Position numbers and translations under genes: made by a program
NCBI GenBank assembly: GCA_028285525.1
Contig: JANQOZ010000027.1
Coordinates: forward strand, 186,001 to 250,000
Direction: 5' to 3'
DNA length: 64,000 bases
Origin: Lysobacterales bacterium
GTDB lineage: Bacteria > Pseudomonadota > Gammaproteobacteria > Xanthomonadales > SZUA-38
Part shown: positions 5,477 to 23,234 of the stretch, piece by piece
Layout of the letters: each line of letters starts with the position of its first letter
Position numbering within the stretch: position 1 is the first letter of the stretch
Notes under the pieces: generated by a model
The model's input: only the letters and a program-made list of their open reading frames with translations
Database searches by the model: none
Told to the model about the DNA's origin: nothing

Positions 5477-6586
5477 GTGTACCAACCGCAAGCGACTCAC
5501 GATGAACAGGCCCGGCAGGATTTTGTCAGCGCCTTCCGCTCACACCTGGCACGACGCATCCAGCCGGCTACCGCGCGCATTTATGAGCAGCAGCTGAAGC
5601 CCGATTTTGTCGCTCGCCACGGCCGCGAACCCGAGTCCATCGACGAGGTGAAGGCCATCATGGATCCAGATCCGGGATACCGGCTTTGGAGTGCGCTGCA
5701 GCGGCGCAGTCAGGAGATGATGTGGGAATCGATCGCGGCTCCGGCGGTGCGCCAGCGGGACGAGCTGATCACGCACTTCCGCAGCCTGTCAGGCGGCGCC
5801 GGAGGGTCGCTGGAGCTCGATCCGACGCTGGAGATTCCGGCCTATCACAGCACCGTGGACATTCACCTTCAGCCAGGCGGCTACTACAGCGATACGTGTC
5901 CCGACGACGTCACGGCCGGCGTGCTCTATGAGACCAGCCTACCCATTTATATCGGGGGCGCCCTGGGTCCCGACAGTGACCGGCTGGGCAGCATGCTGAT
6001 CGAGACCGCCAGGCAGGAGATACCGAATCTCAGCCCGCGGCGGATACTGGATATGGGCTGTGCCGTCGGCAACAGCACGCTGCCGTGGGCCGAGGCGTTT
6101 CCGGACGCCGAGGTGTTTGCCATCGACGTTGCCGCGCCCTGCCTGCGTTACGGCCACCTGCGAGCAGAGGAGAAAGGGCAGCGGGTGCACTTTCGACAGC
6201 AGAACGCCGAACGCACAGGTTTCCCCGACCAGCATTTCGACCTGATCGTGTCACACATCATGCTGCACGAAACCTCGAGCCCGGCCATCGACAACATCAT
6301 GGCCGAGTGTCATCGGCTGCTGAGGCCCGGCGGATTCATGATGCATATGGAAATCCCGCGCGGCGTCGGCCCGTTCGATCAGTTTATGTCGACCTGGGAG
6401 ACCTACAACAACAATGAATACTTTGCGCGGCGCATCACGCACATCGATCTCCCGGCCAGGGCGATTGCCGGCGGCTTTGCGCGAGATCGCGTGAAGCTGA
6501 CCGCGCACGACGGTGGCTTCAGCAAAGCCCAGCGCAACTACACCGAGCGGCCGCTGGCCTGGCCGATCCTCATGGGGCAGGCGTGA
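5477..6586 (+). CDS. Class I SAM-dependent methyltransferase (copy 1 of a three-copy family)
   Basis: 369 residues, GTG start at 5477 with GGAG six bases upstream. The N-terminal 180 residues form a helical region with GREP (about 54) and a VDIH...GGYY motif (about 126-135). A Rossmann SAM domain follows: motif I ILDMGCAVGNS near residue 191, acidic AIDVAAP, and FDLIVSHIMLHE near 254-263. It is clearly homologous to the proteins at 13675 and 22206, which share the N-terminal motifs, the D-(I/F)-H-x3-GG motif and the LHE element. Its stop overlaps the start of a small partner gene. The long N-terminal region presumably shapes the acceptor site. Acceptor unknown; it could be a small molecule of the island's pathway. 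Confidence 0.9.
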   Translation: MYQPQATHDEQARQDFVSAFRSHLARRIQPATARIYEQQLKPDFVARHGREPESIDEVKAIMDPDPGYRLWSALQRRSQEMMWESIAAPAVRQRDELITHFRSLSGGAGGSLELDPTLEIPAYHSTVDIHLQPGGYYSDTCPDDVTAGVLYETSLPIYIGGALGPDSDRLGSMLIETARQEIPNLSPRRILDMGCAVGNSTLPWAEAFPDAEVFAIDVAAPCLRYGHLRAEEKGQRVHFRQQNAERTGFPDQHFDLIVSHIMLHETSSPAIDNIMAECHRLLRPGGFMMHMEIPRGVGPFDQFMSTWETYNNNEYFARRITHIDLPARAIAGGFARDRVKLTAHDGGFSKAQRNYTERPLAWPILMGQA

Positions 6587-6924
6587 TGGATACCCTGCCG
6601 CTCAGCCCCAAGGGTATCCAGCCTCGTTACTTTGACGACCCCGCCACCGACCAGCTGCTCGGTCTGGTGATGTCGCTGGCAAGTGAACTGTCGGTCACGC
6701 GTGATCGCCTCGATGCACTCGAGCGAATGCTCGCCTCGCAGGGGCAGATCGACCGGGAGGCGCTCGACGCTTTCCGGCCCGATCAAGCAGCGAGCGAGGA
6801 ACGTCGCCAGGCGCGAGTAGATTTCATGGCCCGCATCATGGTGTCCATCGAAGCAGCCCTGGACAACTCGGCCCGGACCGACAACCCGATCACTGAAGAA
6901 GAGGTTTATCGGAATCTGGATTAG
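6586..6924 (+). CDS. Small helical partner protein of methyltransferase 1
   Basis: About 112 residues. The ATG at 6586 overlaps the methyltransferase stop in TGATG, with an alternative GTG at 6583, so the pair is translationally coupled. Predicted mainly helical and highly charged. It shares a family pattern with the proteins at 14889 and 21967: FDDP/YDDP near the start, D(Q/K) helix, (R/K)DR...LE, a PD-x-A turn, then R-x2-F-x2-R. Copies 1 and 2 are similar throughout; copy 3 lacks the first 15 residues. No catalytic motif is visible. Constant pairing with one methyltransferase family suggests an obligate subunit. I do not recognise a named family. Confidence 0.85.
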   Translation: MDTLPLSPKGIQPRYFDDPATDQLLGLVMSLASELSVTRDRLDALERMLASQGQIDREALDAFRPDQAASEERRQARVDFMARIMVSIEAALDNSARTDNPITEEEVYRNLD

Positions 6925-6932
6925 CCGGCTGC

Positions 6933-6952
6933 CTGATCACATTTTTGATCAG
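6933..6952. terminator. Stem-loop after methyltransferase 1 operon
   Basis: CTGATCA (6933-6939) and TGATCAG (6946-6952) form a perfect 7-bp stem with loop CATTTT, nine bases after the stop of the partner gene. There is no T-tract, so termination is only possible. Confidence 0.4.
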
Positions 6953-7267
6953 TCGACCTTCAAAACCCCCTCAAGATTCGCTGACTCCTGCCGATACCTG
7001 TTTCGCTACGCCAGACGTTGTTCGGGAAGGCAGACCCGATTGACACCCCCCAGCGCGGGCCATGGACCGGCCGATAAGCGGACTTTTGCTACCGCTCATC
7101 GGAATTGAGAAATTGGTCACAGATCGATTCTCCCCGCCGGCGTAGAACACACACATTGGGAGAGGTGTCGGCGCGTTTTAGTCAACGTACCCACCTTTAG
7201 TTGTAACGAAAGTTGTGACGTCCAGCGCGATTGCAGGCGCAGTTCGCTGGGAGGAAGGTTTTCACGC
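6953..7267. other. Intergenic leader of the DUF1631 gene with a stem-loop
   Basis: No gene is supported in this gap of about 315 bp. It contains an imperfect 11-bp inverted repeat, CCGATAAGCGG (7071-7081) / CCGCTCATCGG (7092-7102), with a 10-base loop. AT-richer sequence follows (7170-7215), which probably contains the promoter. A GGGAGGAAGG ribosome site (7250-7259) precedes the ATG at 7268. Confidence 0.45.
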
Positions 7268-9457
7268 ATGGTCGGCGTAAAGCGACACTATGCGGTCGAG
7301 GCTTTGTCGGGGGTCCATCCGGCATACCGCGACTGCGCGCGTTTTGTTCTCGAGTATCTGGACCAGAAGGTTCCGGGCGTCTTTGCGGACACCTGCGACC
7401 GGCTGTTCGAGATGGCTTCTGAGGCGCGCAGTGACGTCGAGCAAAGCCGTTATTTTGAAGGCAAGCGTGAGATCGAGCAGCGCAAGAGCCGGCTCGCCCA
7501 TCTCTATGTGGAGCGCGTCGACGCGTCGCTGAAAGATTTTTTCAGCCATCGACGCAAGTCGACCGCGGAAGACAACTTCGCCGCATTTAAAGAGGATGAC
7601 CTGCGCATCCTGGATGATCGGGACCTCACCGTTACCCTGGCCATCGACTCGATCGTCGAAACGGCCGATATTCGTTTTACCCGCGAGCTCTACGGCCTGG
7701 GCGTTCGGATCGGCAGCATCTTCGAGACGAGCCCTATCCCCAACGACCTGAACCCGCTGGCGCCGCGCGCGTTGTGCGAAGCGTTTCGCGACGCGTTGCT
7801 GGGGCTGGAGTCCGAGGTTGAGGTCCACCAGGCGCTGTTTAAGTCGTTCGAAAAGAACGTCGTTCGTAACCTGGACGAAATCTATGGCGCCCTGAATCAG
7901 ATCCTGGTTGAGGCCGGCGTCATTCCGGACCTGAAAACGCTGCGTCGTAAGGAAAAGGTGCGGCGTCCGGTGCCGGTTCCGAACCCCGAGCAGGATCAGC
8001 GCGACACCTCTGACGTGGTGATCGACGCGGCCGCCGCCATCGAGCGGCGGCTCATGGAGCAGGTGCGCAAGCTGATTTCCCAGCAGCGCCCTGCGAGCTG
8101 GTCCGCCGGTCAGGCCGCCGCGCCACCGATCCCGACCAACACCGTCATGGAGGTGCTGTCCAGCCTGCAGAGTGAGCTGGCGAGCGGCGGCGCAGCCCGG
8201 GACGTTGGGGCTGACGACATTAAGTCGCAGCTCATGGAGGTCGCGCAACGCGAAGGCGGTCGCGCGCTCGGTCCCGGCGACGAAAACACCGTGGACATGG
8301 TCGGCATGATGTTCGACTTCGTCCGCGCCGACCGACAGCTGCCGGCACAGTTTCAGCAGGCGCTGCATCGGCTGCAGGTGCCGTTTCTGCGTGCCGCCCT
8401 CAAGAATCCGGAAGCGGTACTGGCGCCCAAGGCACCGGCCCGCGAACTGCTGGAGGTGCTGGGCCAGCTCGGTATGGGGTGGACCACCCAGACCGACCGG
8501 AAAGGCGAAACGCTCGGCCGCGTCAACGCGGCGGTGGAAAAGGTCATCAGCGAGTACTGGGACGATCAGCAGGTCCTGGAGAAGCTCCGCGACGACCTGA
8601 AGAGCTTTCATACCCGTCAGCAGACGCTGGCCGAAAAGCGCGCCGAGCGCGTTCGGCAGCAGGTCAAGGGCAAAGAGCAGCTGCAGTTTGCGCGGCAGAA
8701 CGTGGCGCGCCTGCTGCAGCGTCGGGTCCGCAACAAGCCGGTGCCTCAGCTCGTTAGCAACCTGCTCAACCGCGCCTGGGCTCACGTGATGGTCCTGACT
8801 GTGCTCCGCCATGGCATGCAGTCGGAGCAGTGGCGCCGGGTGGTCGCCACCGCCGACGAGCTGATCTGGAGCGTCACGTTCGACAAGAGCGAAAAAGCCG
8901 TTAAGCGTCTGCGCACCCGAATCCCCGTGCTTGCCAAAGCGCTGCGCAGCGGACTCAAGCAGGTGGGCTATCAGGACGCAGAAATCCAGAAGGTGCTGAT
9001 CAACCTGAAGCAGCTCTACGTCAGCATGATTCGCGAATCCGGCAGCGACAAGATTGTGATCGAGGCGGACGAGACCGGCCTGACGATCCGCGGGGAAAAT
9101 ATCGTCGAGCAGGCCGTGCTGGACGAGACGCCGGTGGCGGCCTCCGAAGGCGAGCTGACCGAATTCTTCGACACGGTCCGGAACTGGAATACCGGCCAGT
9201 GGGTGCTGTTTAAGCGCGATGAAAACGAGCCGATGCGCGCGAAGCTCTCGTGGATCAGCCCGATCACCGGCCACTATCTCTTTGTCGACCAGCGCGGCGT
9301 CAAGGCGGCGGAAAAGTCGCTGCAGGAGCTGGCGGAAGATCTGCTTGCAGAGCGCCTGGAGCTTATGGACGAAAGCAGCCTGGTCACCCGCGCCATGCAC
9401 TCCATCGCCAGCAACCTCGGCGGCAAGAACAAGCCCGAAGGCGCGCCCCTGCACTGA
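7268..9457 (+). CDS. DUF1631 family protein
   Basis: 729 residues; the start is fixed by GGAGGAAGG eight bases upstream. It matches my knowledge of the DUF1631 family of proteobacteria: an N-terminal helical region with QSRYFEGKREIEQRK near residue 60, a long helical middle, and a C-terminal PilZ-like barrel containing GQWVLFKRDE and KLSWISPITGHYLFVDQRG (about 640-680). No enzyme motif is visible. Annotations as a thymidine phosphorylase seen for some relatives are not supported here. It is cytoplasmic, monocistronic (own leader, own terminator) and probably housekeeping in origin, although it lies inside the catabolic island. The C-terminal barrel makes a nucleotide-signalling role thinkable, but the RxxxR of c-di-GMP PilZ domains was not seen. 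Confidence 0.88.
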   Translation: MVGVKRHYAVEALSGVHPAYRDCARFVLEYLDQKVPGVFADTCDRLFEMASEARSDVEQSRYFEGKREIEQRKSRLAHLYVERVDASLKDFFSHRRKSTAEDNFAAFKEDDLRILDDRDLTVTLAIDSIVETADIRFTRELYGLGVRIGSIFETSPIPNDLNPLAPRALCEAFRDALLGLESEVEVHQALFKSFEKNVVRNLDEIYGALNQILVEAGVIPDLKTLRRKEKVRRPVPVPNPEQDQRDTSDVVIDAAAAIERRLMEQVRKLISQQRPASWSAGQAAAPPIPTNTVMEVLSSLQSELASGGAARDVGADDIKSQLMEVAQREGGRALGPGDENTVDMVGMMFDFVRADRQLPAQFQQALHRLQVPFLRAALKNPEAVLAPKAPARELLEVLGQLGMGWTTQTDRKGETLGRVNAAVEKVISEYWDDQQVLEKLRDDLKSFHTRQQTLAEKRAERVRQQVKGKEQLQFARQNVARLLQRRVRNKPVPQLVSNLLNRAWAHVMVLTVLRHGMQSEQWRRVVATADELIWSVTFDKSEKAVKRLRTRIPVLAKALRSGLKQVGYQDAEIQKVLINLKQLYVSMIRESGSDKIVIEADETGLTIRGENIVEQAVLDETPVAASEGELTEFFDTVRNWNTGQWVLFKRDENEPMRAKLSWISPITGHYLFVDQRGVKAAEKSLQELAEDLLAERLELMDESSLVTRAMHSIASNLGGKNKPEGAPLH

Positions 9458-9461
9458 TCCG

Positions 9462-9482
9462 GCCGCGCTGAAGCGCGGCTTT
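9462..9482 (+). terminator. Rho-independent terminator of the DUF1631 gene
   Basis: GCCGCGC (9462-9468), loop TGAA and GCGCGGC (9473-9479) are followed by TTT, five bases after the stop codon. The stem is strong and the T-tract short. Confidence 0.7.
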
Positions 9483-9531
9483 CCCGTGCGCTCACAAGCC
9501 CACCTCGGGTACGGGTGTGAACGCCTGAGCC

Positions 9532-9562
9532 TCAAATTCGACAGCAGCTATCGAGATTCGAG
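9532..9562. promoter_or_regulatory. Copy of the island TAGCTGCT element upstream of MFS 2
   Basis: Read on the minus strand, this segment gives CTCGATAGCTGCTGTCGAA, matching CGCGATAGCTGCTATAAAT at 23333. It lies 65-95 bp before the GTG of the MFS gene at 9627, in a non-coding gap. It is one of five such copies, and operator function is inferred. Confidence 0.45.
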
Positions 9563-9626
9563 ACTGGCGATCTACGCGGGGTTGTAAGAAGCTTGGCCGC
9601 TGCTCGCCGAGAAAAAAGGGTCAAAC

Positions 9627-10880
9627 GTGTCTCAATCTCCGTCTGAAGTGCGCAGGCACTGGGCCATCGTGCTGGCTTGCGGTATCGGCATCGGCGCAGG
9701 CGTTACCGGTATCCCCTTCTACACGCTGGGTCTTTTTATCCAGCCGCTCGGCGCTGAGTTTGAGTGGACGCGGGCCGAGGTGCAGGGCATGTTCACGGTG
9801 TTCAGCATCACCGGCATTCTGGCGGTGCCGTTCATCGGGTGGCTGACCGATAAGTACAGCGTGCGGCGCGTGGTGCTGGGGTCACTGGTAGGTACCGTGA
9901 TCGGCTATCTCTGTCTCGCCTACCTCACGCGCTCGCTCATCACGTTCTATATTTCCGCAGCCATCATTTCGCTGCTGGGCGCGGGCACAACGCCGATCAC
10001 CTGGACCAAAGCGATCAGCGGCTGGTTTGACCGGCAGCGAGGCCTGGCGCTGGGCTTGGCGCTCGCCGGCACCGGCTTTGCCGCCCTCACCGCACCCAAC
10101 TACGTTGCCGCGATCCTCGACCGCTACGACTGGCGAGCCGCCTACCTGGGCCTGGCGCTCATTCCCCTGCTGGCGCTGCCGCTGGTGTATCTGCTGCTGA
10201 AGGAACCACCCGGGAGCAGCGGCGCAACATCCACGGATCAGTCCACAGACAAAAAGCTCACCGGCGTGACCGTCGCGGAGGCGCTTCGCGACTGGCGCCT
10301 CTGGGTGATCTTTGCGTCGTTTTTCCTCCTGTCCGGCGCGATCGGTGGCTCTATCCCCAATCTCGTGCCGCTGCTGATGGACGCGTCCATGGAGCGCAGC
10401 GAGGCGGCCGGGATCGTCGGTTTGATCGGCGTTGCGGTGATCGCCGGACGCGTGGTGGTCGGCTACTGTATCGACCGGTTCTGGGCGCCCGGCGTGGCCG
10501 CGATTGTCCAGTCAGCGCCCGTACTGTCTGCCCTGATCCTGCTGCAGCCCGAGCTTTCGGTGCCGCTCGTAACGGTGGCGGTTGTGCTGATCGGCTTTGC
10601 CGCGGGGGCGGAGTTCGACCTGATCGCCTACCTCATCGGCCGCTATTTCGGTCTGCGTCACTACGCAAAAATCTACACGGTGCCCTACATCGGCTTCGCC
10701 GTCTCAGCCGGCCTTGCGCCAACGTTTTTCGGCTACCTGTTTGATATCCAGGGCAGCTACGACCTGGTGATGCAGATCTGCGCCGGCCTGTTCGGCAGCG
10801 GTGCGCTGCTGCTGCTGACGCTCGGGCGCTATCCGTCGTTCGACTCCTCCTCCGGGGACGAGCCGGCGACCGCTCAGTAA
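9627..10880 (+). CDS. MFS transporter, monocarboxylate/oxalate-formate type
   Basis: 417 residues, GTG start with AAAAGGG seven bases upstream. It has twelve hydrophobic segments and the layout of the MCT/OFA branch: GIGAGVTGIPFYTLGLFIQP in helix 1, then a loop of about 30 polar residues between the two six-helix halves (about 195-220). Expected cargo is an organic acid or other small anion. The last 7 bp overlap the convergent aldehyde dehydrogenase gene. It is the second of four MFS genes in the island and is preceded by an island regulatory element, so it likely moves a pathway substrate or product. Confidence 0.9.
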   Translation: MSQSPSEVRRHWAIVLACGIGIGAGVTGIPFYTLGLFIQPLGAEFEWTRAEVQGMFTVFSITGILAVPFIGWLTDKYSVRRVVLGSLVGTVIGYLCLAYLTRSLITFYISAAIISLLGAGTTPITWTKAISGWFDRQRGLALGLALAGTGFAALTAPNYVAAILDRYDWRAAYLGLALIPLLALPLVYLLLKEPPGSSGATSTDQSTDKKLTGVTVAEALRDWRLWVIFASFFLLSGAIGGSIPNLVPLLMDASMERSEAAGIVGLIGVAVIAGRVVVGYCIDRFWAPGVAAIVQSAPVLSALILLQPELSVPLVTVAVVLIGFAAGAEFDLIAYLIGRYFGLRHYAKIYTVPYIGFAVSAGLAPTFFGYLFDIQGSYDLVMQICAGLFGSGALLLLTLGRYPSFDSSSGDEPATAQ

Positions 10881-12391
10881 AACGCGGTGACGGTCTTGGT
10901 CTCCAGGAACGAATCCAGACCCTCAACCCCGAACTCGCGCCCCAGGCCGGATTGCTTGACGCCACCAAACGGCGCGCGGGGATCGACAAAACCGTGCGAG
11001 TTGATCCCGACGATCCCCGCCTGAAAACGCCGCACCATCGTGTGGGCCAGCTTCAGGTTGTTGGTCCACACGCTGGCCGCCAGCCCGTAGCGCGTCTCGT
11101 TGGCCATCTGCGTGACGCTGTCGAGGTCCTTTTCGTCAAACGGAACCGACAGCAGCACCGGTCCGAACACCTCCTCGCGGGCGATCTCCAGGCGCGTGTC
11201 GGGGTGGAAGAGCAGCGTCGGGTGATAGTGAAATCCGCCGGTATCGAGCTCATGACCGCCCAGGAGCACCTCAGCCCCCTCCCGGCGGGCACCGTCGACA
11301 AGCCCGGTGACCCGTGAGCGCTGCTCGCGCGTGATGAGCGGCCCCATCTGAGTCTGATGATCGAGGGCGCTGCCGATGGTGACCGAACCCATCGCGGCGG
11401 CCAGCTTCTCGTTGAGTTTATCGATGACCGTTTTGTCGACGAAAACGCGCGAAGGACACATGCAGAACTGCCCGGCGCTGAACACCCCCATCATCACCAG
11501 GAACTGCACGGCGCTGTCGATATCAGCGTCGCTCATCACCACAAACGCCGACTTGCCGCCAAGCTCGAGGGTCATCCTTTTCAGGCTGCCGGCCCCGTCT
11601 CGCATAATGCTCTGACCGACCGCCGTCGAGCCGGTAAAGGTGATCTTGTCGACGTCCGGATGCTGAGCCAGCGCCCGACCGGCCGTGGCGCCATCGCCGG
11701 TCACCACGTTAATGGCACCGGGCGGCAGCCCCGCCTCCTCGAACAGGCGAGCCAGATAAACCGCCGTCAGGGGCGCCTGCTCAGCCGGCTTGATCACAAT
11801 CGTGCAGCCGGCAGCCAGCGCCGGCGCCACCTTGTTGATAAAGAACGATCCAGGCGCGTTCCAGGGCAGGATTGCACCGACAACACCCAGCGGCTCTCTC
11901 AGCGTGTAGATCGAGCTTTCGCGACCGGTGAAATCCCAGCTTGCCGGTGACGCCAACGTTTCACCTGAAATGCGGCGAGGCGCCCCGGCAAAGTACTCCA
12001 GCGCGTCGATCCAGCTGTCGACCATCTGGCCACCGGTGAGGCTCACCGGCGTTCCGATATCCATCGTTTCCAGACAGGCCAGGAAATCTCGCTGCCCGTC
12101 CACCAGTTCGGCCATCTTGAGCAGTACGGCGCTGCGGGCCCGCGCGTCGCGGCGGGACCAGTCTTCTTCAAAACAGCGCCGCGCGGCGGCGACGGCTCGA
12201 TCGATATCGTCCGTTCCGGCGGCGGGAACCATACCGAGCCGCTGCGCGGTTGACGGGTTGAGCGATTCGATCAGGGCGTCAGGGCCGCGGTCCTGGACGG
12301 GATCGACCCACTGGCCATCGACAAAGAACTGATGGGGTGCCGAGGCGAAGGCCTCCACGGCTTCAACGGTCGCAGGCGAGATAGCGTTCAT
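10874..12391 (-). CDS. NAD(P)+-dependent aldehyde dehydrogenase
   Basis: 505 residues, full-length ALDH superfamily. It shows the N-terminal Rossmann segment (ILPWNAPGSFFINKVAPAL, about 175), the general base in ELGGKSA (Glu near 277) and the catalytic Cys in AGQFCMCPSR (about 310), plus the C-terminal PFGGVKQSGLGREFG bridge element. It oxidises an aldehyde to the acid in the cytoplasm. The subfamily is closest to betaine/aromatic aldehyde dehydrogenases; the exact substrate is unknown. It is transcribed alone or after the DUF1838 gene; the terminator at 12444-12482 separates them, so it probably has its own promoter or depends on read-through. Confidence 0.95.
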   Translation of the reverse strand: MNAISPATVEAVEAFASAPHQFFVDGQWVDPVQDRGPDALIESLNPSTAQRLGMVPAAGTDDIDRAVAAARRCFEEDWSRRDARARSAVLLKMAELVDGQRDFLACLETMDIGTPVSLTGGQMVDSWIDALEYFAGAPRRISGETLASPASWDFTGRESSIYTLREPLGVVGAILPWNAPGSFFINKVAPALAAGCTIVIKPAEQAPLTAVYLARLFEEAGLPPGAINVVTGDGATAGRALAQHPDVDKITFTGSTAVGQSIMRDGAGSLKRMTLELGGKSAFVVMSDADIDSAVQFLVMMGVFSAGQFCMCPSRVFVDKTVIDKLNEKLAAAMGSVTIGSALDHQTQMGPLITREQRSRVTGLVDGARREGAEVLLGGHELDTGGFHYHPTLLFHPDTRLEIAREEVFGPVLLSVPFDEKDLDSVTQMANETRYGLAASVWTNNLKLAHTMVRRFQAGIVGINSHGFVDPRAPFGGVKQSGLGREFGVEGLDSFLETKTVTAFY

Positions 12392-12443
12392 GGTGATACC
12401 GAATGCGGCTCAGGTGCCGCGGCAGCCGATTGGACGGCTGAAA

Positions 12444-12482
12444 TAAAAAGCCGACCCGCCCGGCAGTTCGGGCGGATCGGCC
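12444..12482 (-). terminator. Rho-independent terminator of the DUF1838 gene
   Basis: On the minus strand GCCGATCCGCCCG pairs with CGGGCGGGTCGGC (one mismatch) around a 6-nt loop, followed by TTTTTATTT. It is 20 bp after the DUF1838 stop and is one of the strongest terminators in the window. Confidence 0.92.
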
Positions 12483-12502
12483 TGATGAGCCTGGACTGAG
12501 CG

Positions 12503-13513
12503 CTAGCCTTTGACCGGCGCGGGCGTCTGCTCGCGGGCATAGTTCTCCAGGCTGGACAGGCTGGGATCGACCCACGTGTCCGGCGCATCGAAAAACTTCG
12601 GGTAGTGCTTCTTGCCGTACGCCATGACCTTGGGTGAGACCATGTCGTGGCTGCTGAAGCCACCCATCGTGCCCTGGTAGTAGATGTGGCCGGGCGCCTG
12701 CCCCATCAGCATCCAGGGGAGCCACGGCGTAATCCGTCCCCAGCTCCCGGAGTAGTTCACAGATTGGACGCTCTCGTCTTCGATGTCCTCGCGGCGAATC
12801 ACGTAGCGGAACATCTCTGAGACGCGGTTCATCTTGCCGGACGACTCGCGCGGCCATTTGTCGGGCTGCAGCGCTGACGGGTAAAAAAGATGAATGTCGG
12901 ACGCCAGCGTCACCGTGTTCGACTCGGTGAGTTTCCACGGCAGGATGAACGGAATGTCGGGTCGCTTCTCCTTGTTCAGACCACCGTAGTCGGGCGGCTG
13001 AAAGAAGACCTTTCGAATCAGGTGATTGAACGGGTCGTTGGCAACGTGCACGACCTTCACCGTCTCGTTCGTGTACGGGTTGGTGTATTCCTCCAGCACT
13101 TCGCCCGTCGCAAGGTCGGTATAGAAGACCGTTTCGCGCAGGAGCTTCTGGTAGGTGCCGTCGCCGTTGTCGATGAGCCGGGCCGCGGAGTAGCCCTCGA
13201 AGCCCATCAGCGGGCGGATCGCCTCACCGTCGACAACGCCGTGGACCACGCCGCTGTACCAGCCGTGTTTCTGTGACTTGAAGTCCATGTGGCCGGCCAG
13301 CCGGGCATAGGCGTCGCGGTTCCACTCGGGATCGCGGTACTGTGGGCCGAGCCGTTCATCAAACTTCGGGCCGCCGATGGACGGCGCTGCCGCCGCCGGC
13401 GTGGGCTTCAGGCCGAGCGCGGCGCCGCCGAGCAGCGCACCGCCCGCGATCATCCCCGCACCCAGAAAGTGGCGGCGGTCAAAATTGGTTTCAGATTCTT
13501 TCGGTTTGCTCAC
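12503..13513 (-). CDS. DUF1838 family protein with Tat signal
   Basis: 336 residues from a GTG at 13513, chosen because AGGAG lies seven bases upstream; a longer frame to a TTG at 13549 is less likely. The N-terminus carries a twin-arginine signal (FDRRHFLGAGMI) followed by an Ala/Gly-rich hydrophobic stretch and an AAAAP cleavage region. The body fits DUF1838, with YQKLLRETVFYTDLATGEVL and NPYTNETVKVVHVANDPFNH. This family has no assigned reaction that I know of; such exported proteins are frequent in catabolic islands of sphingomonads and marine gammaproteobacteria. It is divergent from methyltransferase 2 and shares its control region, so it likely belongs to the same regulon. Confidence 0.85.
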   Translation of the reverse strand: MSKPKESETNFDRRHFLGAGMIAGGALLGGAALGLKPTPAAAAPSIGGPKFDERLGPQYRDPEWNRDAYARLAGHMDFKSQKHGWYSGVVHGVVDGEAIRPLMGFEGYSAARLIDNGDGTYQKLLRETVFYTDLATGEVLEEYTNPYTNETVKVVHVANDPFNHLIRKVFFQPPDYGGLNKEKRPDIPFILPWKLTESNTVTLASDIHLFYPSALQPDKWPRESSGKMNRVSEMFRYVIRREDIEDESVQSVNYSGSWGRITPWLPWMLMGQAPGHIYYQGTMGGFSSHDMVSPKVMAYGKKHYPKFFDAPDTWVDPSLSSLENYAREQTPAPVKG

Positions 13514-13578
13514 GACGTGTCTCCTGCATGCCTCTTTGGCAGCGCTCAAGTATCAGCGCTGGGCCTGAGGGCCACAAT

Positions 13579-13606: not shown

Positions 13607-13674
13607 TTCCGCGGTAGCAATAAGCGCCCCAATATTGCCCAATAGCGTCAGCGTACTGAGTTAGGAGATTCGCC

Positions 13675-14892
13675 ATGCTCAACATCTTTCAGCAACAACC
13701 TCATCCGGCACTGCCGGAAGCCAGCCACGATGAGAAATCCCGCCAGGAGTTTTCCAAGAGCCTGCGCCAGTTTGTGCAGGGTCAGCTGCTTCCCGGACTG
13801 GCACCCGTCTTCCAGCGGCAGCAGAAAAAGTTTGTCGACGAGCACGGCCGAGAGCCCAAGGATCGGCGTGAGGTCCGTAAATTTATGGTGCAGGACCCCT
13901 ACTTCCAGACGTACGCCAGCACCAACCGATGCGCGCAGGAGCTGCTTTGGGAGTCCGTGCTGACCAGCATCGAACGGCAGCAGCCTTCCCTGAACGAAAC
14001 GGCGGCCCAGCTTTCGGCCAAAAACGGCGCGCCGCTCGTCGTCGATCCGGAGATGGAGGTGCCTCGTTACGTAACGGGGATCGACATTCACTGCATGCCG
14101 GGCGGCTACGCGGGCCGGGCAGCGGAGGACGACATCAGCACGGCCGCGCTCTACGACCGGGGCGTCTACCTCTACGCGATGGGCTACGTCGGGCCGATGA
14201 ACGACGACATGGGTCGCTCGGTGTGCAACTACGTCACGCGCAACATGCCGGACTTCAAGCCGACCCGCATCCTCGATATGGGATGCACGGTCGGTCACTC
14301 CACCCTGCCTTACAAAGAATACTTTCCGGACGCGGAGGTGATCGGCATCGACGTTGCGGGCCCACAGGTGCAGTACGCCCACGCGCGGGCCGGCGGCATG
14401 GGGATGGACGTCAGTTTTCAGCAGCGCGACGCGGCGGACACGGGCTTTGAGCCCGGCAGCTTCGACCTGATCGTCAGCCACATCCTGCTGCATGAAACCT
14501 CGAGCAAGGCCATGCCGGCGATTTTCAAAGAATGCTATCGCCTCCTGAAGCCGGGCGGCCTCATGATTCACGCCGACCTGCCGCCGTTCGACCACAGCGA
14601 TCTGTTTTCGGAGTTCATCCTGGACAACGAGACGCACTACAACAACGAGCCGTTCTGGGGGCCGATGCGCGATATGGATCAGATCCAGCTGGCGGTTAAC
14701 GCCGGCTTTGATCAGGAACAGGTGCGCTTCGATACGGCACCGATGGCGGTGCTGGAATTTGCCGCCGCTCACGCGGAGGGCTACAGCGAAGAAGCGGCCA
14801 GTGAAGTCGCCGACCGAGACTTCGAGGCCGGCGAGTTTGCTCCCGGCGGCGGCTGGGAAGTGCTGATCGGCCACAAGCAGGCAGACGCATGA
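13675..14892 (+). CDS. Class I SAM-dependent methyltransferase (copy 2)
   Basis: 405 residues, ATG with AGGAG seven bases upstream. It has the same architecture as the protein at 5477: HDEKSRQEF at the N-terminus, HGREP near 59, IDIH...PGGY near 136, SAM motif I ILDMGCTVGHS near 201, GIDVAGP, and FDLIVSHILLHETSS near 263-275. The C-terminal extension of about 60 residues (EFAAAHAEGYSEEAAS...) is longer than in copy 1. It is coupled by an ATGA overlap to its partner gene and then to an FAD oxidase gene, so three polypeptides are likely made in fixed ratio. The conserved D-I-H and L-H-E histidines flanking the SAM pocket are candidates for acceptor or metal binding (inference). Confidence 0.9.
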   Translation: MLNIFQQQPHPALPEASHDEKSRQEFSKSLRQFVQGQLLPGLAPVFQRQQKKFVDEHGREPKDRREVRKFMVQDPYFQTYASTNRCAQELLWESVLTSIERQQPSLNETAAQLSAKNGAPLVVDPEMEVPRYVTGIDIHCMPGGYAGRAAEDDISTAALYDRGVYLYAMGYVGPMNDDMGRSVCNYVTRNMPDFKPTRILDMGCTVGHSTLPYKEYFPDAEVIGIDVAGPQVQYAHARAGGMGMDVSFQQRDAADTGFEPGSFDLIVSHILLHETSSKAMPAIFKECYRLLKPGGLMIHADLPPFDHSDLFSEFILDNETHYNNEPFWGPMRDMDQIQLAVNAGFDQEQVRFDTAPMAVLEFAAAHAEGYSEEAASEVADRDFEAGEFAPGGGWEVLIGHKQADA

Positions 14893-15233
14893 GCGGCATG
14901 CGACGTTATCCAAAGGGCGCCCGCCCGCAGTTTTACGATGATCCGGCGATGGATCAGGCCATGTCGATGATTATGGTTCTGGCCAGCGAGGTCAGCGTGC
15001 TAAGGGACCGGCTCGACACCTTCGAACGCCTGAGCGCGGCCGGCGCGGGCCCCAGCCGAGAAGAGGTTGAGGCCTACGAGCCCGACGAAGCCTGCCTGAA
15101 CGAACGCGAGGCAGCGCGCCAGGAGTTTTTCCAGCGCCTGTACTTCGTCGCCAACAAGCGAGCGCAGGAAGTCGCGGAGGCTGACAACTCCCAGCGCTAT
15201 CAGGCGGTCTTGAAGGACACCGAGGAAAATTGA
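14889..15233 (+). CDS. Small helical partner protein of methyltransferase 2
   Basis: 114 residues, ATGA overlap with the methyltransferase stop. It aligns without large gaps to the 6586 protein: YPKGARPQFYDDPAMDQ versus SPKGIQPRYFDDPATDQ, then LASEVSVLRDRLDTFER versus LASELSVTRDRLDALER, then EPDEA versus RPDQA. The central segment (about 25-50) has heptad-like spacing suited to a helical hairpin or coiled coil. There is no signal peptide or catalytic motif. Its stop overlaps the TTG start of the FAD oxidase by four bases. Most likely a structural or activating subunit of the methyltransferase. Confidence 0.87.
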   Translation: MSGMRRYPKGARPQFYDDPAMDQAMSMIMVLASEVSVLRDRLDTFERLSAAGAGPSREEVEAYEPDEACLNEREAARQEFFQRLYFVANKRAQEVAEADNSQRYQAVLKDTEEN

Positions 15234-16882
15234 GCGCCGCCGACGCGGCCAGCGCTGACGCTGCGGTCGTCGAACCGGCGGCCGCGCGCGGCGAGGACTC
15301 CCAAGGCCACGTCAGGGAAGCGATCAGCGACCTTCGCCGCCTGCTCGGCGAGCGCGGGGTGCTGACCGACCCCGAGACGCTGGCCGTGTACGGCACCGAC
15401 ATTTTTGGCCCGCTCGAGCCACCTGCCGCGGTCCTGCGACCGGAGACCACAGAGCAGGCGGCCAAGGCGGTGCGGCGCTGTCTCGACGCCGGCCTGGCCA
15501 TCAACGCGCGAGGCGCCGGCGCTTCGTACACACACTCGCACGTGCCCGCGACGACCCGAGCGGTGGTGCTCGACTGCACGGAACTCGACCGCATCATCGC
15601 GATCGACGAAGCGGACATGACGGTGACGGTCGAGCCCGGCGTCACCTGGAAAGCGCTGGACGATGCGCTGGCGCAGCGGGGTCTGCGGACGCCTTTCTGG
15701 GGTCCGTATTCAGGCCTCAAGTCCACCGTTGGAGGAGCGCTATCCCAGCACGCCATCAGCCTCGGCTCCGGTCTCTATGACGCCTCCAACAGCGTCGTCA
15801 CGGGGCTGAAGGTCATTACCGGCCGCGGCGAAATCATTGACACCGGCGCCACCGCCAGCCGGTTCTACCGCACCTGCGGCCCGGACCTTACCGGCCTGTT
15901 CACCGGTGATTCGGGCGCGTTTGGCGTGAAGCTGGAGGCAACGCTGCGGCTGATCCGGCGTCCCTCCCACGTCGAGGGAAGCTGTTTCGTTTATCCGAAG
16001 TTCGCGGATATGGCGCAGGCCATGATGGAGGCGGCGCGCGAAAATCTGGCCAGCGAGATTATGGCGATCGATCCGCAGCTCCAGCAGGGCCAGCTCGGAT
16101 CCATCGACAGCAGCGCAGCGCTCGGCGCCGCGAAAGCCATTTTCCGCAGCTCGCCGGGAGTCTGGTCGGGCCTGCGGGCCGTCCTGACCGCCGCAACCCG
16201 GGGGCGCTCGGCGCTCAACTCATCCGGGTACCTGGTCAACTACATCACCGAAGGACGGTCTGCCGGCGAGGCGCGCTTCAAGCTCGACTCGATCCGCCAG
16301 ACCGTGGGTCGAGGCGGCGTGGAGGTGGCCAACACGCTCGCGCTGGCGCTGCGCGCGATGCCCTTTCGGCCGTTTACGCCGGTACTGGGGCCCAAAGGTG
16401 AGCGCTGGCTCCCAATGCATTGCGTGCTGCCGTTCAGCCAGGTGCAGCCCTTTCACCAGGCGCTGACGGCGTTTTACGACAAGCATGCGGCCGCCATGGC
16501 TGAACACCGGGTCCATATCGCAACCATGTTCGTTACGGTCAGCAGCACCGGCTTCGTCTACGAGCCAACGTTTTACTGGCAGGACAGCCAGCACGCCGCG
16601 CACCTGGATCTCGTCCCCGAGGAGCACCGCCAGCAGCTGCCGACGTATCCCGCCAACCCAGAAGCTCGGTCGTTTGTGCGAACCATGAAGAAACAGATGA
16701 TCGAGCTGATGCAGGCGCATGGCGCGACGCACTACCAGCTCGGCAAATCTTACCCGTTCATGTCGACCCGGGAACCCGGCGCCGGCAGTCTTCTTAAGAC
16801 GCTGAAGCGCGAGTTCGACCCCCATAACCTGATGAACCCCGGCGTGCTGGAATTTCCTGGCTCTGAGCCGATGGTCGGCTAG
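15230..16882 (+). CDS. FAD-linked oxidase, VAO/PCMH superfamily
   Basis: 550 residues from a TTG start at 15230 (GAGGAAAA just upstream, 4-bp overlap with the preceding gene). The FAD-binding PCMH domain (about 55-235) shows AINARGAGASYTHSH, VEPGVTWKAL, STVGGALSQHA and FTGDSGAFGVKLEATLRL. The C-terminal cap ends with FDPHNLMNPGVLEFPG, as in vanillyl-alcohol oxidase, eugenol oxidase and 4-cresol dehydrogenase flavosubunits, which are of similar length. A phenolic or other hydride-donating substrate is therefore plausible, though D-lactate/glycolate-type relatives cannot be excluded. Coupled to a methyltransferase pair, it probably oxidises the methyltransferase product or precursor. Confidence 0.88.
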   Translation: MSAADAASADAAVVEPAAARGEDSQGHVREAISDLRRLLGERGVLTDPETLAVYGTDIFGPLEPPAAVLRPETTEQAAKAVRRCLDAGLAINARGAGASYTHSHVPATTRAVVLDCTELDRIIAIDEADMTVTVEPGVTWKALDDALAQRGLRTPFWGPYSGLKSTVGGALSQHAISLGSGLYDASNSVVTGLKVITGRGEIIDTGATASRFYRTCGPDLTGLFTGDSGAFGVKLEATLRLIRRPSHVEGSCFVYPKFADMAQAMMEAARENLASEIMAIDPQLQQGQLGSIDSSAALGAAKAIFRSSPGVWSGLRAVLTAATRGRSALNSSGYLVNYITEGRSAGEARFKLDSIRQTVGRGGVEVANTLALALRAMPFRPFTPVLGPKGERWLPMHCVLPFSQVQPFHQALTAFYDKHAAAMAEHRVHIATMFVTVSSTGFVYEPTFYWQDSQHAAHLDLVPEEHRQQLPTYPANPEARSFVRTMKKQMIELMQAHGATHYQLGKSYPFMSTREPGAGSLLKTLKREFDPHNLMNPGVLEFPGSEPMVG

Positions 16883-16907
16883 AGACAGGCTTCAGACCGC
16901 AGATCTG

Positions 16908-16934
16908 TTCGATTTGCTATAGCAGTTTTGCCAG
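16908..16934. promoter_or_regulatory. Island regulatory element upstream of the hydrolase lipoprotein
   Basis: TTCGATTTGCTATAGCAGTT (16908-16927) contains a perfect GCTATAGC palindrome (16916-16923). It aligns with 13581-13606 through TTGCTATAGC-x-G and the following CCA-x-ATT. It lies 26 bp after the FAD oxidase stop and about 80 bp before the hydrolase start. Confidence 0.55.
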
Positions 16935-17004
16935 ATTGCGTTAGGTGCGTGGCACCTTCCTGATGCAGACTTGTCGGTCGGCAATCAGTCCCTCGGAGAT
17001 CAGC

Positions 17005-17985
17005 GTGCACTCTGTGAACCGGATAACACCGAATCGCTCTGGCAATCGCCCCGGCAATCGGCCTGGCAATCGCCTCGCGTCGCTCCTGCTCGCAGGCCTG
17101 GCGGTCGTCCTGCTCAGCGCCTGTGCCACCGTCCCGGACTGCAGCCCAACAGCGCTGCCGGTGAGCAGCACCGAACTCACGCTGACCCATTTAGACGGGC
17201 GCGAAGCCCGCTTCACGCTCTGGCAGCCAGACCAGGCGGGAACCTATCCCGTTATGGTTTTCTCTCACGGCGCCTACGCTGCGCCCGAACGCTACGACGC
17301 CCTGCTCGGCCCGCTGGCCGCGATGGGTTTTGTTGTTGCCGCCCCGCTTCACATCGACTCGGAGCTCATCGCCACCGATCCGCCGCCGCCACCCGCCCAG
17401 GTCTGGCGCACTCGGAAAGAAGATTTCGCACGGCTGCTGGAGGCACCACCGGAATTGGTTGAGGCGCTGGGGCCGGGCATCAGCTTGAGCGATGAAAAAA
17501 TTGCCGCCGGCCACTCCTACGGAGCCTTCGGCGCCCAGGTAGCCGCCGGCGCGGCGGCGGTTGGAGATCCACCCGGACAGGTGGAGCGGGGGGTCAAGGC
17601 CGTGCTGGCGTTTTCGCCGCCGGGGCTGCTGCCGGGGTTTATCGAGCCAAACGCCTGGGATCAGCTGGCGCGACCCCAGCTGCTGCTGACCGGCACCAGC
17701 GACGTGCTGCCGGGGTTTATCGACGACTGGCGGGCCCACGCCGCCGCCTATCGACAGGCGCCGGCGGGCGATCAGTGGCTCTGGGCCGGCGAGGGCGTCG
17801 ACCACTATTTTGGCAACGTCTTTGGCCGTCTGGACCGTGAAGCCCCCGACCAGCGGCCACAGTTTGATGAAGCGCTGGCCGTGAGTCAGCGTTTCCTCGC
17901 CGCGTATACTTCCAGCCCCCTGGCGGTCTGCAGCGATCCGCTGAGCACCGGCTCCACCGCGCTGGCGAGCATTGAGCAACGATGA
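17005..17985 (+). CDS. Alpha/beta-hydrolase lipoprotein (dienelactone-hydrolase/esterase type)
   Basis: 326 residues from a GTG at 17005 (GGAG six bases upstream; a longer frame to 16945 exists). A basic N-terminus with a 12-bp tandem repeat is followed by a hydrophobic stretch and the lipobox LLSAC, so it is predicted to be lipid-anchored. The alpha/beta-hydrolase elements are VMVFSHGAY (oxyanion loop), the nucleophile elbow GHSYGA, the acid in TGTSDVLPG and His in GVDHYFGN. It resembles chlorophyllase/platelet-activating-factor-acetylhydrolase-like esterases. Its stop is overlapped by a possible start of the next gene (ATGA at 17982), so it forms a unit with the double serine hydrolase; both are envelope hydrolases. 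Substrate unknown. Confidence 0.85.
   Translation: MHSVNRITPNRSGNRPGNRPGNRLASLLLAGLAVVLLSACATVPDCSPTALPVSSTELTLTHLDGREARFTLWQPDQAGTYPVMVFSHGAYAAPERYDALLGPLAAMGFVVAAPLHIDSELIATDPPPPPAQVWRTRKEDFARLLEAPPELVEALGPGISLSDEKIAAGHSYGAFGAQVAAGAAAVGDPPGQVERGVKAVLAFSPPGLLPGFIEPNAWDQLARPQLLLTGTSDVLPGFIDDWRAHAAAYRQAPAGDQWLWAGEGVDHYFGNVFGRLDREAPDQRPQFDEALAVSQRFLAAYTSSPLAVCSDPLSTGSTALASIEQR
17039..17074 (+). repeat. Three 12-bp tandem repeats in a signal-peptide region
   Basis: CTGGCAATCGCC, CCGGCAATCGGC and CTGGCAATCGCC stand head to tail. They encode Gly-Asn-Arg-Pro repeats in the basic region before the hydrophobic core of the hydrolase signal peptide. In-frame slippage would change positive charge without shifting the frame. 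Confidence 0.8.
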
Positions 17986-18017
17986 TTTCCTCCTTACCAA
18001 AAATTGACGAGAACACC

Positions 18018-20528: not shown

Positions 20529-20559
20529 GGTCTAATGCCGGCCGTTGGGGCGTCGCCTG

Positions 20560-21963
20560 TCAGGCGGCCTCTACGGCAGCCTGCGCGGCCGCGGATTCGC
20601 CGGCCAGACGGCCGAGGGTAGTGGCGGTCAGCAGGCCGTTGCCCGCCATGTAGCCCCAGCAGGAGGGTCCGGAAATGCCGCGGGCGGCACCGCCCCCGGC
20701 AAACAGATTGGGTAGCGGCGTCCCGGTCTCGTCCAGGACGCGCGCGTTCTCATCCACCACCAGCCCGCCCTGGGTGTGAAACAGCGCGCCGGTGACCCGC
20801 ACCGCGTAAAACGGGCCGGTCAGAGCCGGCCGCGACGCAAACACCCGGCCGAACTCGTCAGGCTCGCCGGCTTCGGTAAGCTGAGCCACCGCGGCAGCGG
20901 TCTCGATGAGTCCCTGAGCATCAATCCCCGTCAGTTCGGCGAGCGCCTCCAGCGTCGGCGCCGTTCGCACGGCCTTGGCCTTGAGCGCGTCGCGGTAGTC
21001 GTCGAACTCTTCCATCAACTCGTGGAGGCGCTGGTCATAAATTGTATAGGCCACGTGTCCGGGCTGGCGTAGAACGTCCACCGCCTGTTCGGAGTAGCCG
21101 CGCGACTCATTGGAAAATCGACGACCGTCTCGGTTCACCTGAAACCCGCCTTCCATAATGACCGGCCACAGAATCGGGATGGCGTGCCCATCGGCGAGCC
21201 CGCCGTGACCTTGATAGGCGGACATGTCCGCAACGGCAGCGCCGAGCTCCTGGCCCCAGTCGATCGCATCACCCTTGTTGCCCGGATGACCAAAAAACAC
21301 GCCTTCAGCTATTTCTGGCATGTAGCGCGCAACCTTTTCCGGGTCACCGGCAAACCCGCAGCAGGCGAGGATCAGCGATTCACAGCCGACGTCTTCGACG
21401 CTGCCGTCGGGTCGCTGACAGCGCACGCCGCGAACCGTTTTTGTCTCGTCCGCAAACACGTGCGTGACCTGGGCCTGAGTGAGAATGCCAGCGCCGGCGT
21501 CCTCGGCGGCCTGCTGCAGGGCACCCATCAGCTCCGCTCCAGTTCGATTAGGGGTGCCGTGCATTCGCTTTACGCTGTGTCCGGGGTAGAGAAAGCTGTC
21601 GACGAGCGACAGGGGCACGCCGGACTCGTGAAGCCAGTCGACGGTGCGCGCAGAAGCTTCGGCCAGGGCGCGAACCACCCCTTCGTCGGTTTCGCCCCGC
21701 GTCTTTTTCATGACATCGCTGGTGAACAGTTCCGCGCTGTCGGTGATGCCTGCCGCCTGCTGCAGTGCGCTCCCGGCTGCGGGGATCAGTCCGGTGGACA
21801 TCGCGGTGGTGCCCAGCGGCGTGGGATCACGCTCAAGCACCAGCGTCTCGACCCCGCTCTGGGCGGCGGCCAGCGCGGCCGACAGGCCGCAGCCACCGGC
21901 GCCGACGATCACAACGGGAACCTCGAAGCCGAACTCAGCTTCGCTGACGGACAGGACGGACAT
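20560..21963 (-). CDS. FAD-dependent dehydrogenase, fumarate reductase / ketosteroid dehydrogenase-like
   Basis: 467 residues. It has the dinucleotide-binding motif VVIVGAGGCGLSAALAA near residue 16, an inserted substrate cap with MHGTPNRTGAEL (about 135), RRFSNESRGY (about 285) and the closing FAD motif LFAGGGAARGISG near 425. It belongs to the fumarate reductase/succinate dehydrogenase flavoprotein fold that includes 3-ketosteroid delta-1-dehydrogenases and urocanate or tricarballylate dehydrogenases. It has no Tat or Sec signal, so it is cytoplasmic. Its ATG lies three bases after the stop of methyltransferase partner 3, forming the operon methyltransferase 3 - partner 3 - flavoprotein. 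It probably introduces or reduces a C=C bond in the pathway intermediate. Confidence 0.88.
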   Translation of the reverse strand: MSVLSVSEAEFGFEVPVVIVGAGGCGLSAALAAAQSGVETLVLERDPTPLGTTAMSTGLIPAAGSALQQAAGITDSAELFTSDVMKKTRGETDEGVVRALAEASARTVDWLHESGVPLSLVDSFLYPGHSVKRMHGTPNRTGAELMGALQQAAEDAGAGILTQAQVTHVFADETKTVRGVRCQRPDGSVEDVGCESLILACCGFAGDPEKVARYMPEIAEGVFFGHPGNKGDAIDWGQELGAAVADMSAYQGHGGLADGHAIPILWPVIMEGGFQVNRDGRRFSNESRGYSEQAVDVLRQPGHVAYTIYDQRLHELMEEFDDYRDALKAKAVRTAPTLEALAELTGIDAQGLIETAAAVAQLTEAGEPDEFGRVFASRPALTGPFYAVRVTGALFHTQGGLVVDENARVLDETGTPLPNLFAGGGAARGISGPSCWGYMAGNGLLTATTLGRLAGESAAAQAAVEAA

Positions 21964-21966
21964 CGA

Positions 21967-22203
21967 CTACTCAGCTTCCAGCGTCGGGGCCAGCACCCTT
22001 GAGATAAAAGCCTTGCGCTCCTCGTCGAGACGCTCGGTCAGCGCAGCGTCAGGCTGCATCCGATCAACCTTGTCCGCGACGTCCACGCCGGCCTCGGCCA
22101 GCGCCTGTTCGAGCACTGCCGCCCGGTCTTTGACCACCCACAGTTCGTGCATCAGGTTGAGCACAACCTGGAAGGTCGCCTTGTCCACCGACTGGGAGGA
22201 CAC
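21967..22203 (-). CDS. Small helical partner protein of methyltransferase 3
   Basis: 78 residues, GTG start two bases after the methyltransferase stop. It is the shortest of three homologues: it lacks the KG...DDP leader but keeps VDK...HELWVVKDRAAVLEQ, MQPDAALTERLDEER and KAFISRVL, which align with both other copies (D-K/Q, K/R-D-R, L-E, P-D-x-A, R/K-x2-F-x2-R). Fully helical prediction, no transmembrane segment. Conservation of the partner next to a divergent methyltransferase copy argues that the pairing is functional. It sits between the methyltransferase and a flavoprotein, as in copy 2. Confidence 0.85.
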   Translation of the reverse strand: MSSQSVDKATFQVVLNLMHELWVVKDRAAVLEQALAEAGVDVADKVDRMQPDAALTERLDEERKAFISRVLAPTLEAE

Positions 22204-22205
22204 GA

Positions 22206-23234
22206 TCAGGCCGCCGGCTTGCGGGCGATGGTGACCCAGGGGTATTGACGCTCACCCAGGCCGTAGGAGCGGGCGTCTTCAAAGCCCAGCTCGGTGGCCA
22301 GCGCCGCAAGATCCAGGCTGGCCGCTTCGCGCCAGTAGGGTTCCCCGCCGCGCAGGGCGCCGGCGTTGGCACGCCACTGGGCGATACGCGGCATAGCGCG
22401 GAAGGGCTGTACGTCACTCATAAACACCACGCCGCCCGGCTCGAGCAGCCGGAACGCTTCGACAAAAACCGCCCGGGTCGCCCGGGCCGGCAGCTCGTGG
22501 AGCAGGATGTAGGAGGTCACCAGGTCGAAGCTGCTGTCGGGCAGCCCGGTCTCTTCGGCGCTGGCCTGAATCAGCCGCCAGCTCGCGCCTCGCTCGTTGC
22601 CGAAGCGCTGCGCCTGCTCCAGCATGGGAAGCCCCGGCTCAACACCGGTGATGGCAGCCTCGGGGAACGCCTCGGCGAGGGCGACCGTGAAGTGCCCGCT
22701 GGAGGTACCCATTTCCAGTATGTTGCTGAACTTGCGGTCACCGAGCTCGTTCAGCACGTCGCGCCGCTGCTTGAAGATGCCGCCCGGAAAATTTTTGGCG
22801 ACATACTTGGGGTGAATGAGCTCACCGTGAACAAAACCCTGGTGCTCTCGAACCCAGCCCCCGGTGGTGCGATGAAAATCCACGCCCACCCAGTAGTCCG
22901 GTGGCTCATAGCCTGGGCGGGTTTCAATCTGAGTACCGCCCTGGCGCAGACGCTCAAACTCGGGCTCCAGCTCCGGCTGAATCTCCTTGAACGCATCGAA
23001 GGTGATTTCGCCGTGGGTGGTCGCCGACCATTCCCCCATCGCGAGAAGGAACTGCTGCTGAGGGTTATCCCCCAGACGCTGTTCCATCATCTCGAGCTGT
23101 TCGTCGAAGTCTTCCGGCAGCTCCACGTCCGCGATCTTCGCTCCAACCGCTGCGCTGAGCTTCATGCCCATCGCGCCCATGTCGGCCGCAAAATCGATCG
23201 CCGACCGGCCTCGTTGGCGTAACTCAAATTCCAT
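22206..23234 (-). CDS. Class I SAM-dependent methyltransferase (copy 3, divergent)
   Basis: 342 residues from ATG 23234, chosen because AGGAG lies eight bases upstream; the frame extends to 23330 without a good ribosome site. It keeps the family architecture: a helical N-terminal region, VDFHRTTGGWV near 117, SAM motif I ILEMGTSSGHF near 171, acidic GVEPGLP, and FDLVTSYILLHE. The Cys of motif I in copies 1 and 2 is replaced by Thr, and the N-terminal 110 residues differ strongly, suggesting a different acceptor. First gene of a three-gene operon, divergent from the GPH transporter at 23520 with the best copy of the regulatory element between them. Confidence 0.88.
   Translation of the reverse strand: MEFELRQRGRSAIDFAADMGAMGMKLSAAVGAKIADVELPEDFDEQLEMMEQRLGDNPQQQFLLAMGEWSATTHGEITFDAFKEIQPELEPEFERLRQGGTQIETRPGYEPPDYWVGVDFHRTTGGWVREHQGFVHGELIHPKYVAKNFPGGIFKQRRDVLNELGDRKFSNILEMGTSSGHFTVALAEAFPEAAITGVEPGLPMLEQAQRFGNERGASWRLIQASAEETGLPDSSFDLVTSYILLHELPARATRAVFVEAFRLLEPGGVVFMSDVQPFRAMPRIAQWRANAGALRGGEPYWREAASLDLAALATELGFEDARSYGLGERQYPWVTIARKPAA

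Follow-up and report, generated by a model that had tools for sequence, protein, structure and literature searches.

What kind of enzyme is implied when the same two-gene unit, a methyltransferase gene followed by a gene for a very small protein, occurs three times within a short distance in one bacterial contig? This is the case in a 64,000-nucleotide stretch of a Lysobacterales bacterium (GenBank assembly GCA_028285525.1, contig JANQOZ010000027.1, positions 186,001 to 250,000), hereafter the window. A preliminary description had proposed that the three units encode obligate two-subunit methyltransferases, each tuned to a different acceptor of one pathway. To judge from pairing, divergence and genomic context, each unit probably encodes an obligate two-subunit, small-molecule methyltransferase of class I, dependent on S-adenosylmethionine (SAM), which was duplicated as a unit and serves one catabolic cluster per copy. 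The three methyltransferases (MT1 to MT3) and their partners (P1 to P3) are as follows.

5477..6586, plus strand: MT1, class I SAM methyltransferase of 369 residues with a GTG start; Methyltransf_25 at 78 bits (cut-off 27), motifs DIHLQPGG and LHE
6583..6924, plus strand: P1, small helical partner of 113 residues, overlapping the MT1 stop; 121.6 bits with the partner profile built from the source genome
13675..14892, plus strand: MT2, methyltransferase of 405 residues, with relatives at 60-72% identity across Pseudomonadota
14889..15233, plus strand: P2, partner of 114 residues with a 4-base overlap with MT2; no PDB match
22206..23234, minus strand: MT3, diverged methyltransferase starting from an ATG at 23234, in a reading frame open to 23330; Methyltransf_25 at 66.9 bits
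21967..22203, minus strand: P3, short partner of 78 residues, 2 bases after MT3; 91.7 bits with the partner profile

Pair 1 (5477-6924) and pair 2 (13675-15233) are on the plus strand, and pair 3 runs from 23234 to 21967 on the minus strand. The positions of the copies had been given correctly, but the strand of the third had been left unstated; a plus-strand reading of 22206-23234 yields no methyltransferase. Each methyltransferase gene is indeed followed closely by its partner, with two 4-base overlaps and one 2-base gap (the MT1/P1 overlap is 1 base if the ATG at 6586 is used). The methyltransferases comprise 343-405 residues and the partners 78-114. The homology of the three methyltransferases is significant and extends over their full length, including the long N-terminal region, which in MT1 is a family-specific domain of ~180 residues: MT1 shows 39% identity with MT2 over 391 columns (E = 3e-94), and MT3 shows 29% over 254 columns (E = 2e-31). 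All of the motifs named earlier recur in the three copies, namely D-x-H-x3-GG (DIHLQPGG in MT1, DIHCMPGG in MT2 and DFHRTTGG in MT3) and LHE in the methyltransferases, and RDR, RDR and KDR (P1, P2 and P3, respectively), LE, PDxA and [RK]xxFxxR in the partners.

To what extent do the two genes belong together? In the source genome (G000; 6.23 Mb in 125 contigs), a search with MT2 found 13 methyltransferases of the family, followed by two generic methyltransferases below 30 bits. A profile of nine partners gave exactly 13 matches, one for each of these methyltransferases. Nine of the partners lie directly downstream of the methyltransferase and two directly upstream; one is upstream beyond a LysR gene, and the last is ~4.3 kb off on the same strand. 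The 13 pairs are spread over nine contigs.

The same association is evident in other genomes. The partner profile matches 9 of 369 genomes of the same class, and a separate profile made from the methyltransferase N-terminal domain only finds the same nine. The methyltransferase and partner copy numbers are equal in those outside G000 (2/2, 6/6, 3/3, 4/4 and the rest single), so that at the genome level neither gene occurs without the other. The chance of the nine-genome overlap is ~3e-18 (hypergeometric, assuming an independence that genomes of shared ancestry do not have); despite shared ancestry, it is difficult to see how the copy numbers would be equal otherwise. In a scan of 85,000 species genomes, 351 relatives of MT2 were found, and 80 loci with 60-72% identity were kept, from Novosphingobium, Sphingomonas, Niveispirillum, Nitrospirillum, Caulobacter, Alteromonas, Roseateles, a Woeseiaceae metagenome-assembled genome and others. 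Among the 98 methyltransferases in these loci, 90 have a directly adjacent partner and 4 more have one in the same locus; in L114 the partner is next door on the opposite strand. The most common junctions of downstream pairs are the 4-base ATGA overlap (47 cases) and a 1-base overlap (19 cases). Outside the source genome, all partners found are beside a family methyltransferase or in the same cluster, except for one 25-bit match (L036). Partners are thus not found mostly away from the methyltransferases, and the obligate pairing that had been proposed was not refuted by this check. No natural fusion of the two genes was found among 129 methyltransferases and 129 partners. Because the pairing recurs 13 times within one genome and also across classes, it is far beyond chance.

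Three diverged loci of the source genome show additional features. The methyltransferase of L009 (G000:C77:127724-128554) starts with a Tat-like signal, DRRELLNMAAVGAAAAAGAGS, which is odd for a SAM-dependent enzyme, and in the two pairs L026 and L027 (G000:C53 and C59) the partner lies downstream of a gene for a PhyH-like dioxygenase.

Is the association reflected in the divergence of the two proteins? Over 65 non-redundant pairs, the distance matrices of methyltransferase and partner are correlated with r = 0.94 (0/1000 permutations). When the same loci are compared, the correlation between methyltransferase and partner is 0.86-0.93, whereas that of either with a flavin adenine dinucleotide (FAD) oxidase or DUF1838 neighbor is 0.48-0.62 (for the methyltransferase, 0.55 with the FAD oxidase and 0.62 with DUF1838). 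In some pairs the two genes share a reading frame on either side of the stop codon. Translating this stop as glycine joins them in silico, and in L110 the 20-residue intergenic sequence forms the linker of the resulting fusion. The AlphaFold2 model of this fusion (alignment of 11 paired, 16 methyltransferase-only and 18 partner-only rows) has a mean predicted local distance difference test (pLDDT) score of 87.2 and a predicted template modeling (pTM) score of 0.88, with most helices of the partner, which is all-helical in the model, at 85-94. According to our own estimate, a partner floating freely on a perfect methyltransferase would cap pTM near 0.70-0.75; because 0.88 exceeds this cap, the partner appears to be placed on the methyltransferase in this model. 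A second fusion, L033 of a diverged subfamily, points the same way, more weakly. Docking was judged from the pLDDT and pTM scores alone, on fused chains.

Several observations weigh against an obligate two-subunit enzyme. In the source genome the L006 partner is 4.3 kb from its methyltransferase; elsewhere, the methyltransferases L088, L123 and L125 have no partner in the locus stretch examined, and a relative of these three in L121 has its nearest partner 8.2 kb away. An alpha/beta hydrolase tracks the methyltransferase equally well (r = 0.91), and because of this the co-divergence must partly come from linkage. The L033 model is less sure of the partner (pTM 0.80, partner pLDDT 58-81), and fusion input can itself favor contact. 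Moreover, methylation is not an obvious step in a catabolic cluster. Taken with these points, the 13:13 correspondence, the identical set of 9/369 genomes, the adjacency and the co-divergence strongly support the core of the earlier proposal, the obligate pair, at the level of sequence, and the complex itself is a prediction, confident for L110 and weaker for L033.

What would such an enzyme look like? The window methyltransferases match Methyltransf_25 far above its curated cut-off of 27 bits (MT1 78.1, MT2 77.7 and MT3 66.9), which indicates a SAM-binding Rossmann domain. Motif I of class I enzymes is retained; in MT2 numbering, used below for the methyltransferases of the family, G203 and G207 are each conserved in 98% of the 65 pairs and D226, the acidic residue after strand 2, in 95%. 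On these grounds the proteins belong to the class I SAM-dependent methyltransferase superfamily, and methyl transfer would be their expected activity. By sequence and by fold they come closest to ordinary methyltransferases (phosphoethanolamine methyltransferase, RebM and MitM); SpnF is among the fold matches, with Rv2258c and DsyB as the nearest folds of PF00891, and the lanthipeptide methyltransferase LahSB is among the sequence matches. Membership in PF00891 itself is not supported, as MT1 and MT2 score 16.3 and 16.9 bits against a gathering score of 22.3 and MT3 is unlisted. All listed scores with the UbiE, BioC and CpaM equivalogs are far under the NCBIfam curated cut-offs. The partner family has no curated match in Pfam or NCBIfam, and neither its profile nor that of the methyltransferase N-terminal domain has a match in PDB; two partners match PspB weakly (best E = 2.5e-4), which was taken as coiled-coil similarity.

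Seven methyltransferase residues are invariant over the 65 pairs: H139 in the N-terminal domain, D264, H273, E274, E286, R289 and E325. In an alignment with the sugar O-methyltransferase RebM, LHE falls on LHH and H273 on H140. The proposed catalytic residues of RebM are H140/H141 and D166, and by this correspondence H273 is probably the base that activates the acceptor. The large subunit would bind SAM in its Rossmann domain, and the long helical N-terminal domain would supply H139 of D-x-H-x3-GG, presumably facing the active site together with H273 and E274 of LHE and with E325; H139 and E325 may thus be what the rest of the chain contributes. A metal site built from these invariant residues is conceivable. 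In the partner, the most conserved residues (E34, D22, L31, E46, R41 and D43) lie along one long helix. This amphipathic helix, D-x4-L..-x-LA-x-E-x2-VLRDR-x-D-x2-ER, may be the essential element of the small subunit, which is predicted to pack onto the large one and could be needed for stability, shape or the substrate pocket. The best reading of the partner is therefore a small helical subunit with a putative structural or activating role. The two subunits would be translated together through the 1- or 4-base overlap, and duplication of the pair as a unit would let each copy serve a different catabolic cluster, in which the enzyme would methylate a low-molecular-weight substrate or intermediate.

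The shortest partner is from an Antarctobacter plasmid; it has 76 residues, is upstream of its methyltransferase and shows little recognizable beyond the central helix. At this locus (L204; pSMS3-3, 4916-9868), the pair lies beside an alpha/beta hydrolase and two genes that resemble pyridoxal-phosphate-dependent decarboxylases by appearance. The setting differs from the TonB clusters described below.

Other roles of the partner, or of the pair, should be considered. The pair could catalyze a ring closure, an isomerization or a lyase step instead of a methyl transfer, with SAM in a structural role like that in the cyclase SpnF. In favor of this, SpnF is among the fold matches, and the invariant His and Glu residues would also suit acid-base chemistry of another kind. 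We nevertheless regard this as unlikely, for the nearest matches are ordinary methyltransferases, and both the glycines of motif I and the acidic residue that follows strand 2 are more than 90% conserved. Alternatively, the partner could be a dedicated chaperone or assembly factor that leaves after the methyltransferase has folded, so that only the large subunit would remain in the mature enzyme. This would agree with its small size, its translational coupling, its rapid sequence drift with few fixed residues and the shortened version that keeps only the central helix. However, the confident docking in one model and the tight co-divergence of each partner with its own methyltransferase paralogue favor a lasting and specific interface, and the chaperone role seems rather improbable.

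It could also be asked whether the small protein is what the enzyme acts on, either a substrate or the carrier of a bound compound, as with peptide precursors. There is one small protein per enzyme, LahSB is among the matches and the C-terminal tail of the partner is variable; but conservation is in the middle helix, which is neither leader nor core, the tail is missing in the 76-residue version, and the neighbors are oxidases and importers rather than peptide maturation genes, all of which makes a substrate or carrier very unlikely. Least credible is a transcriptional or feedback regulator of the cluster that is merely co-transcribed. Although the partner is helical, small and located within operons, it matches no DNA-binding family in Pfam or NCBIfam, the clusters hold their own LysR, GntR or IclR regulators, and the partner follows the methyltransferase and not the rest of the cluster.

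Does the proposed two-subunit methyltransferase resemble any known system? Trm112 serves the methyltransferases Trm9, Trm11, Bud23 and Mtq2, to which it binds through a beta-zipper. It is a small protein that activates class I SAM methyltransferases through complex formation (PMC5372719). The likeness is a small protein that is in complex with class I methyltransferases and needed by them, which is here a prediction. The difference is that one Trm112 is shared by several methyltransferases of the translation machinery, whereas in the present case there is a separate helical partner for each methyltransferase, and the genes belong to catabolic clusters; with 13 partners for 13 methyltransferases, the pattern of one shared activator does not apply. 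Searches of Pfam, NCBIfam and PDB do not place the partner with Trm112 by sequence and give only isolated, weak, coiled-coil-like matches.

RebM, AtmM, MitM and the plant phosphoethanolamine methyltransferase have the SAM domain in common with the window proteins, and LHH of RebM is the counterpart of LHE; however, the N-terminal domain typical of the present family is missing from them, and no requirement for a partner is known. The O-methyltransferases of PF00891, with Rv2258c and DsyB as the nearest folds, likewise have a helical N-terminal domain before the SAM domain, and in them H-D/E follows the fourth strand as part of an L-H-[DE] motif. These enzymes, however, form homodimers and have an N-terminal sequence of unrelated type, and the window proteins are under the Pfam cut-off. 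The top NCBIfam score of all three methyltransferases is with CpaM (NF043040, corrinoid protein-associated methyltransferase), yet its 52-56 bits fall far short of the cut-off, which is 180. No description of catabolic small-molecule methyltransferases with a helical partner specific to each paralogue was found in the libraries and papers searched, and the earlier statement that no such system has been described holds to this extent.

Which compounds might be methylated? The genes next to the pairs in the window include the following.

15230..16882, plus strand: FAD oxidase of VAO/glycolate-oxidase type, overlapping the P2 stop; FAD_binding_4, E = 6e-33
12503..13549, minus strand: DUF1838 protein with a Tat-like signal, divergent from MT2; PF08894 at 152 bits
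20560..21963, minus strand: FAD_binding_2 (flavocytochrome c/KSTD-like) oxidoreductase, directly downstream of P3; PF00890, E = 1e-54
16945..17985, plus strand: alpha/beta hydrolase of the MT2 cluster, the one whose relatives follow the methyltransferase in distance (r = 0.91)

Most copies of the pair lie in a cluster with its own TonB receptor or major facilitator superfamily carrier and with oxidoreductases. The VAO-type FAD oxidase is the most common neighbor, with relatives among 54 of 99 clustered sequences, in about half of the loci; on plasmid pJE1 of Sphingomonas sp. JE1, the pair is followed by FAD_binding_2 and VAO-type genes of the same kinds as in the window. DUF1838 is found in 8 of the 369 genomes, 6 of them among the nine with the pair (P = 7e-10). 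Further recurrent neighbors are alpha/beta hydrolases, flavin amine oxidases, MhpA-like monooxygenases, a PuuE-like hydrolase and a relative of arylmalonate decarboxylase. Because most copies adjoin differing sets of oxidases and transporters, the substrate probably differs from one pair to the next, and together they probably do not form one pathway. The suggestion of different acceptors is therefore plausible, whereas that of a single pathway is unsupported, given 13 pairs on nine contigs and clusters that mostly have their own receptor or transporter.

Some neighboring genes deserve a separate mention. DUF1838, which is almost unstudied, is linked to the pair by genome and often by gene position, and it has further sites in the source genome. 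The hydrolase at 16945-17985 has a short Chlorophyllase match in Pfam (33 bits), which covers only 44 residues and is unspecific. At 26932-29781 on the minus strand, a FAD monooxygenase, a protein of the arylmalonate-decarboxylase family and a PuuE-like hydrolase of deacetylase fold form one block; similar blocks recur beside MT2 relatives in Sphingomonads and Alteromonas, and the block may be a cyclic-imide or lactam branch. Breakdown of tetrapyrroles, pyrroles or cyclic imides was considered from the PuuE-, arylmalonate-decarboxylase- and aconitase-like neighbors and hydantoinase, and is not claimed. The literature on DUF1838, a family mentioned by a single paper among those searched, and on plasmid pJE1 gave no substrate for the pair. 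Between the first two pairs, a 757-residue open frame (7262-9535, minus strand) is antisense to a 729-residue gene (7268-9457, plus strand) that was labeled DUF1631-like by eye; the former is probably a shadow frame of a high-GC gene.

These results bring together two protein families that are now called only 'class I SAM-dependent methyltransferase' or are unnamed. A methyltransferase of this kind cloned alone might be inactive and be dropped from further study. The pair also offers a handle on hundreds of uncharacterized catabolic clusters in Novosphingobium, Sphingomonas, Niveispirillum, Alteromonas and relatives, and it ties DUF1838 to these clusters. The 13 pairs in one cell are a natural series for studying the joint divergence of an enzyme and its small subunit, and the findings point to a new family of two-part enzymes with a use in the breakdown of unusual organic molecules. 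As a tentative and rather doubtful extension, such heteromeric SAM enzymes could be the specificity module in a large number of catabolic clusters of Pseudomonadota that are supplied through TonB and hold DUF1838 and VAO-type oxidases; plant or algal metabolites that are otherwise inert would be methylated and then oxidized, and duplication of the pair, up to 13 per genome, would have widened the diet of these bacteria.

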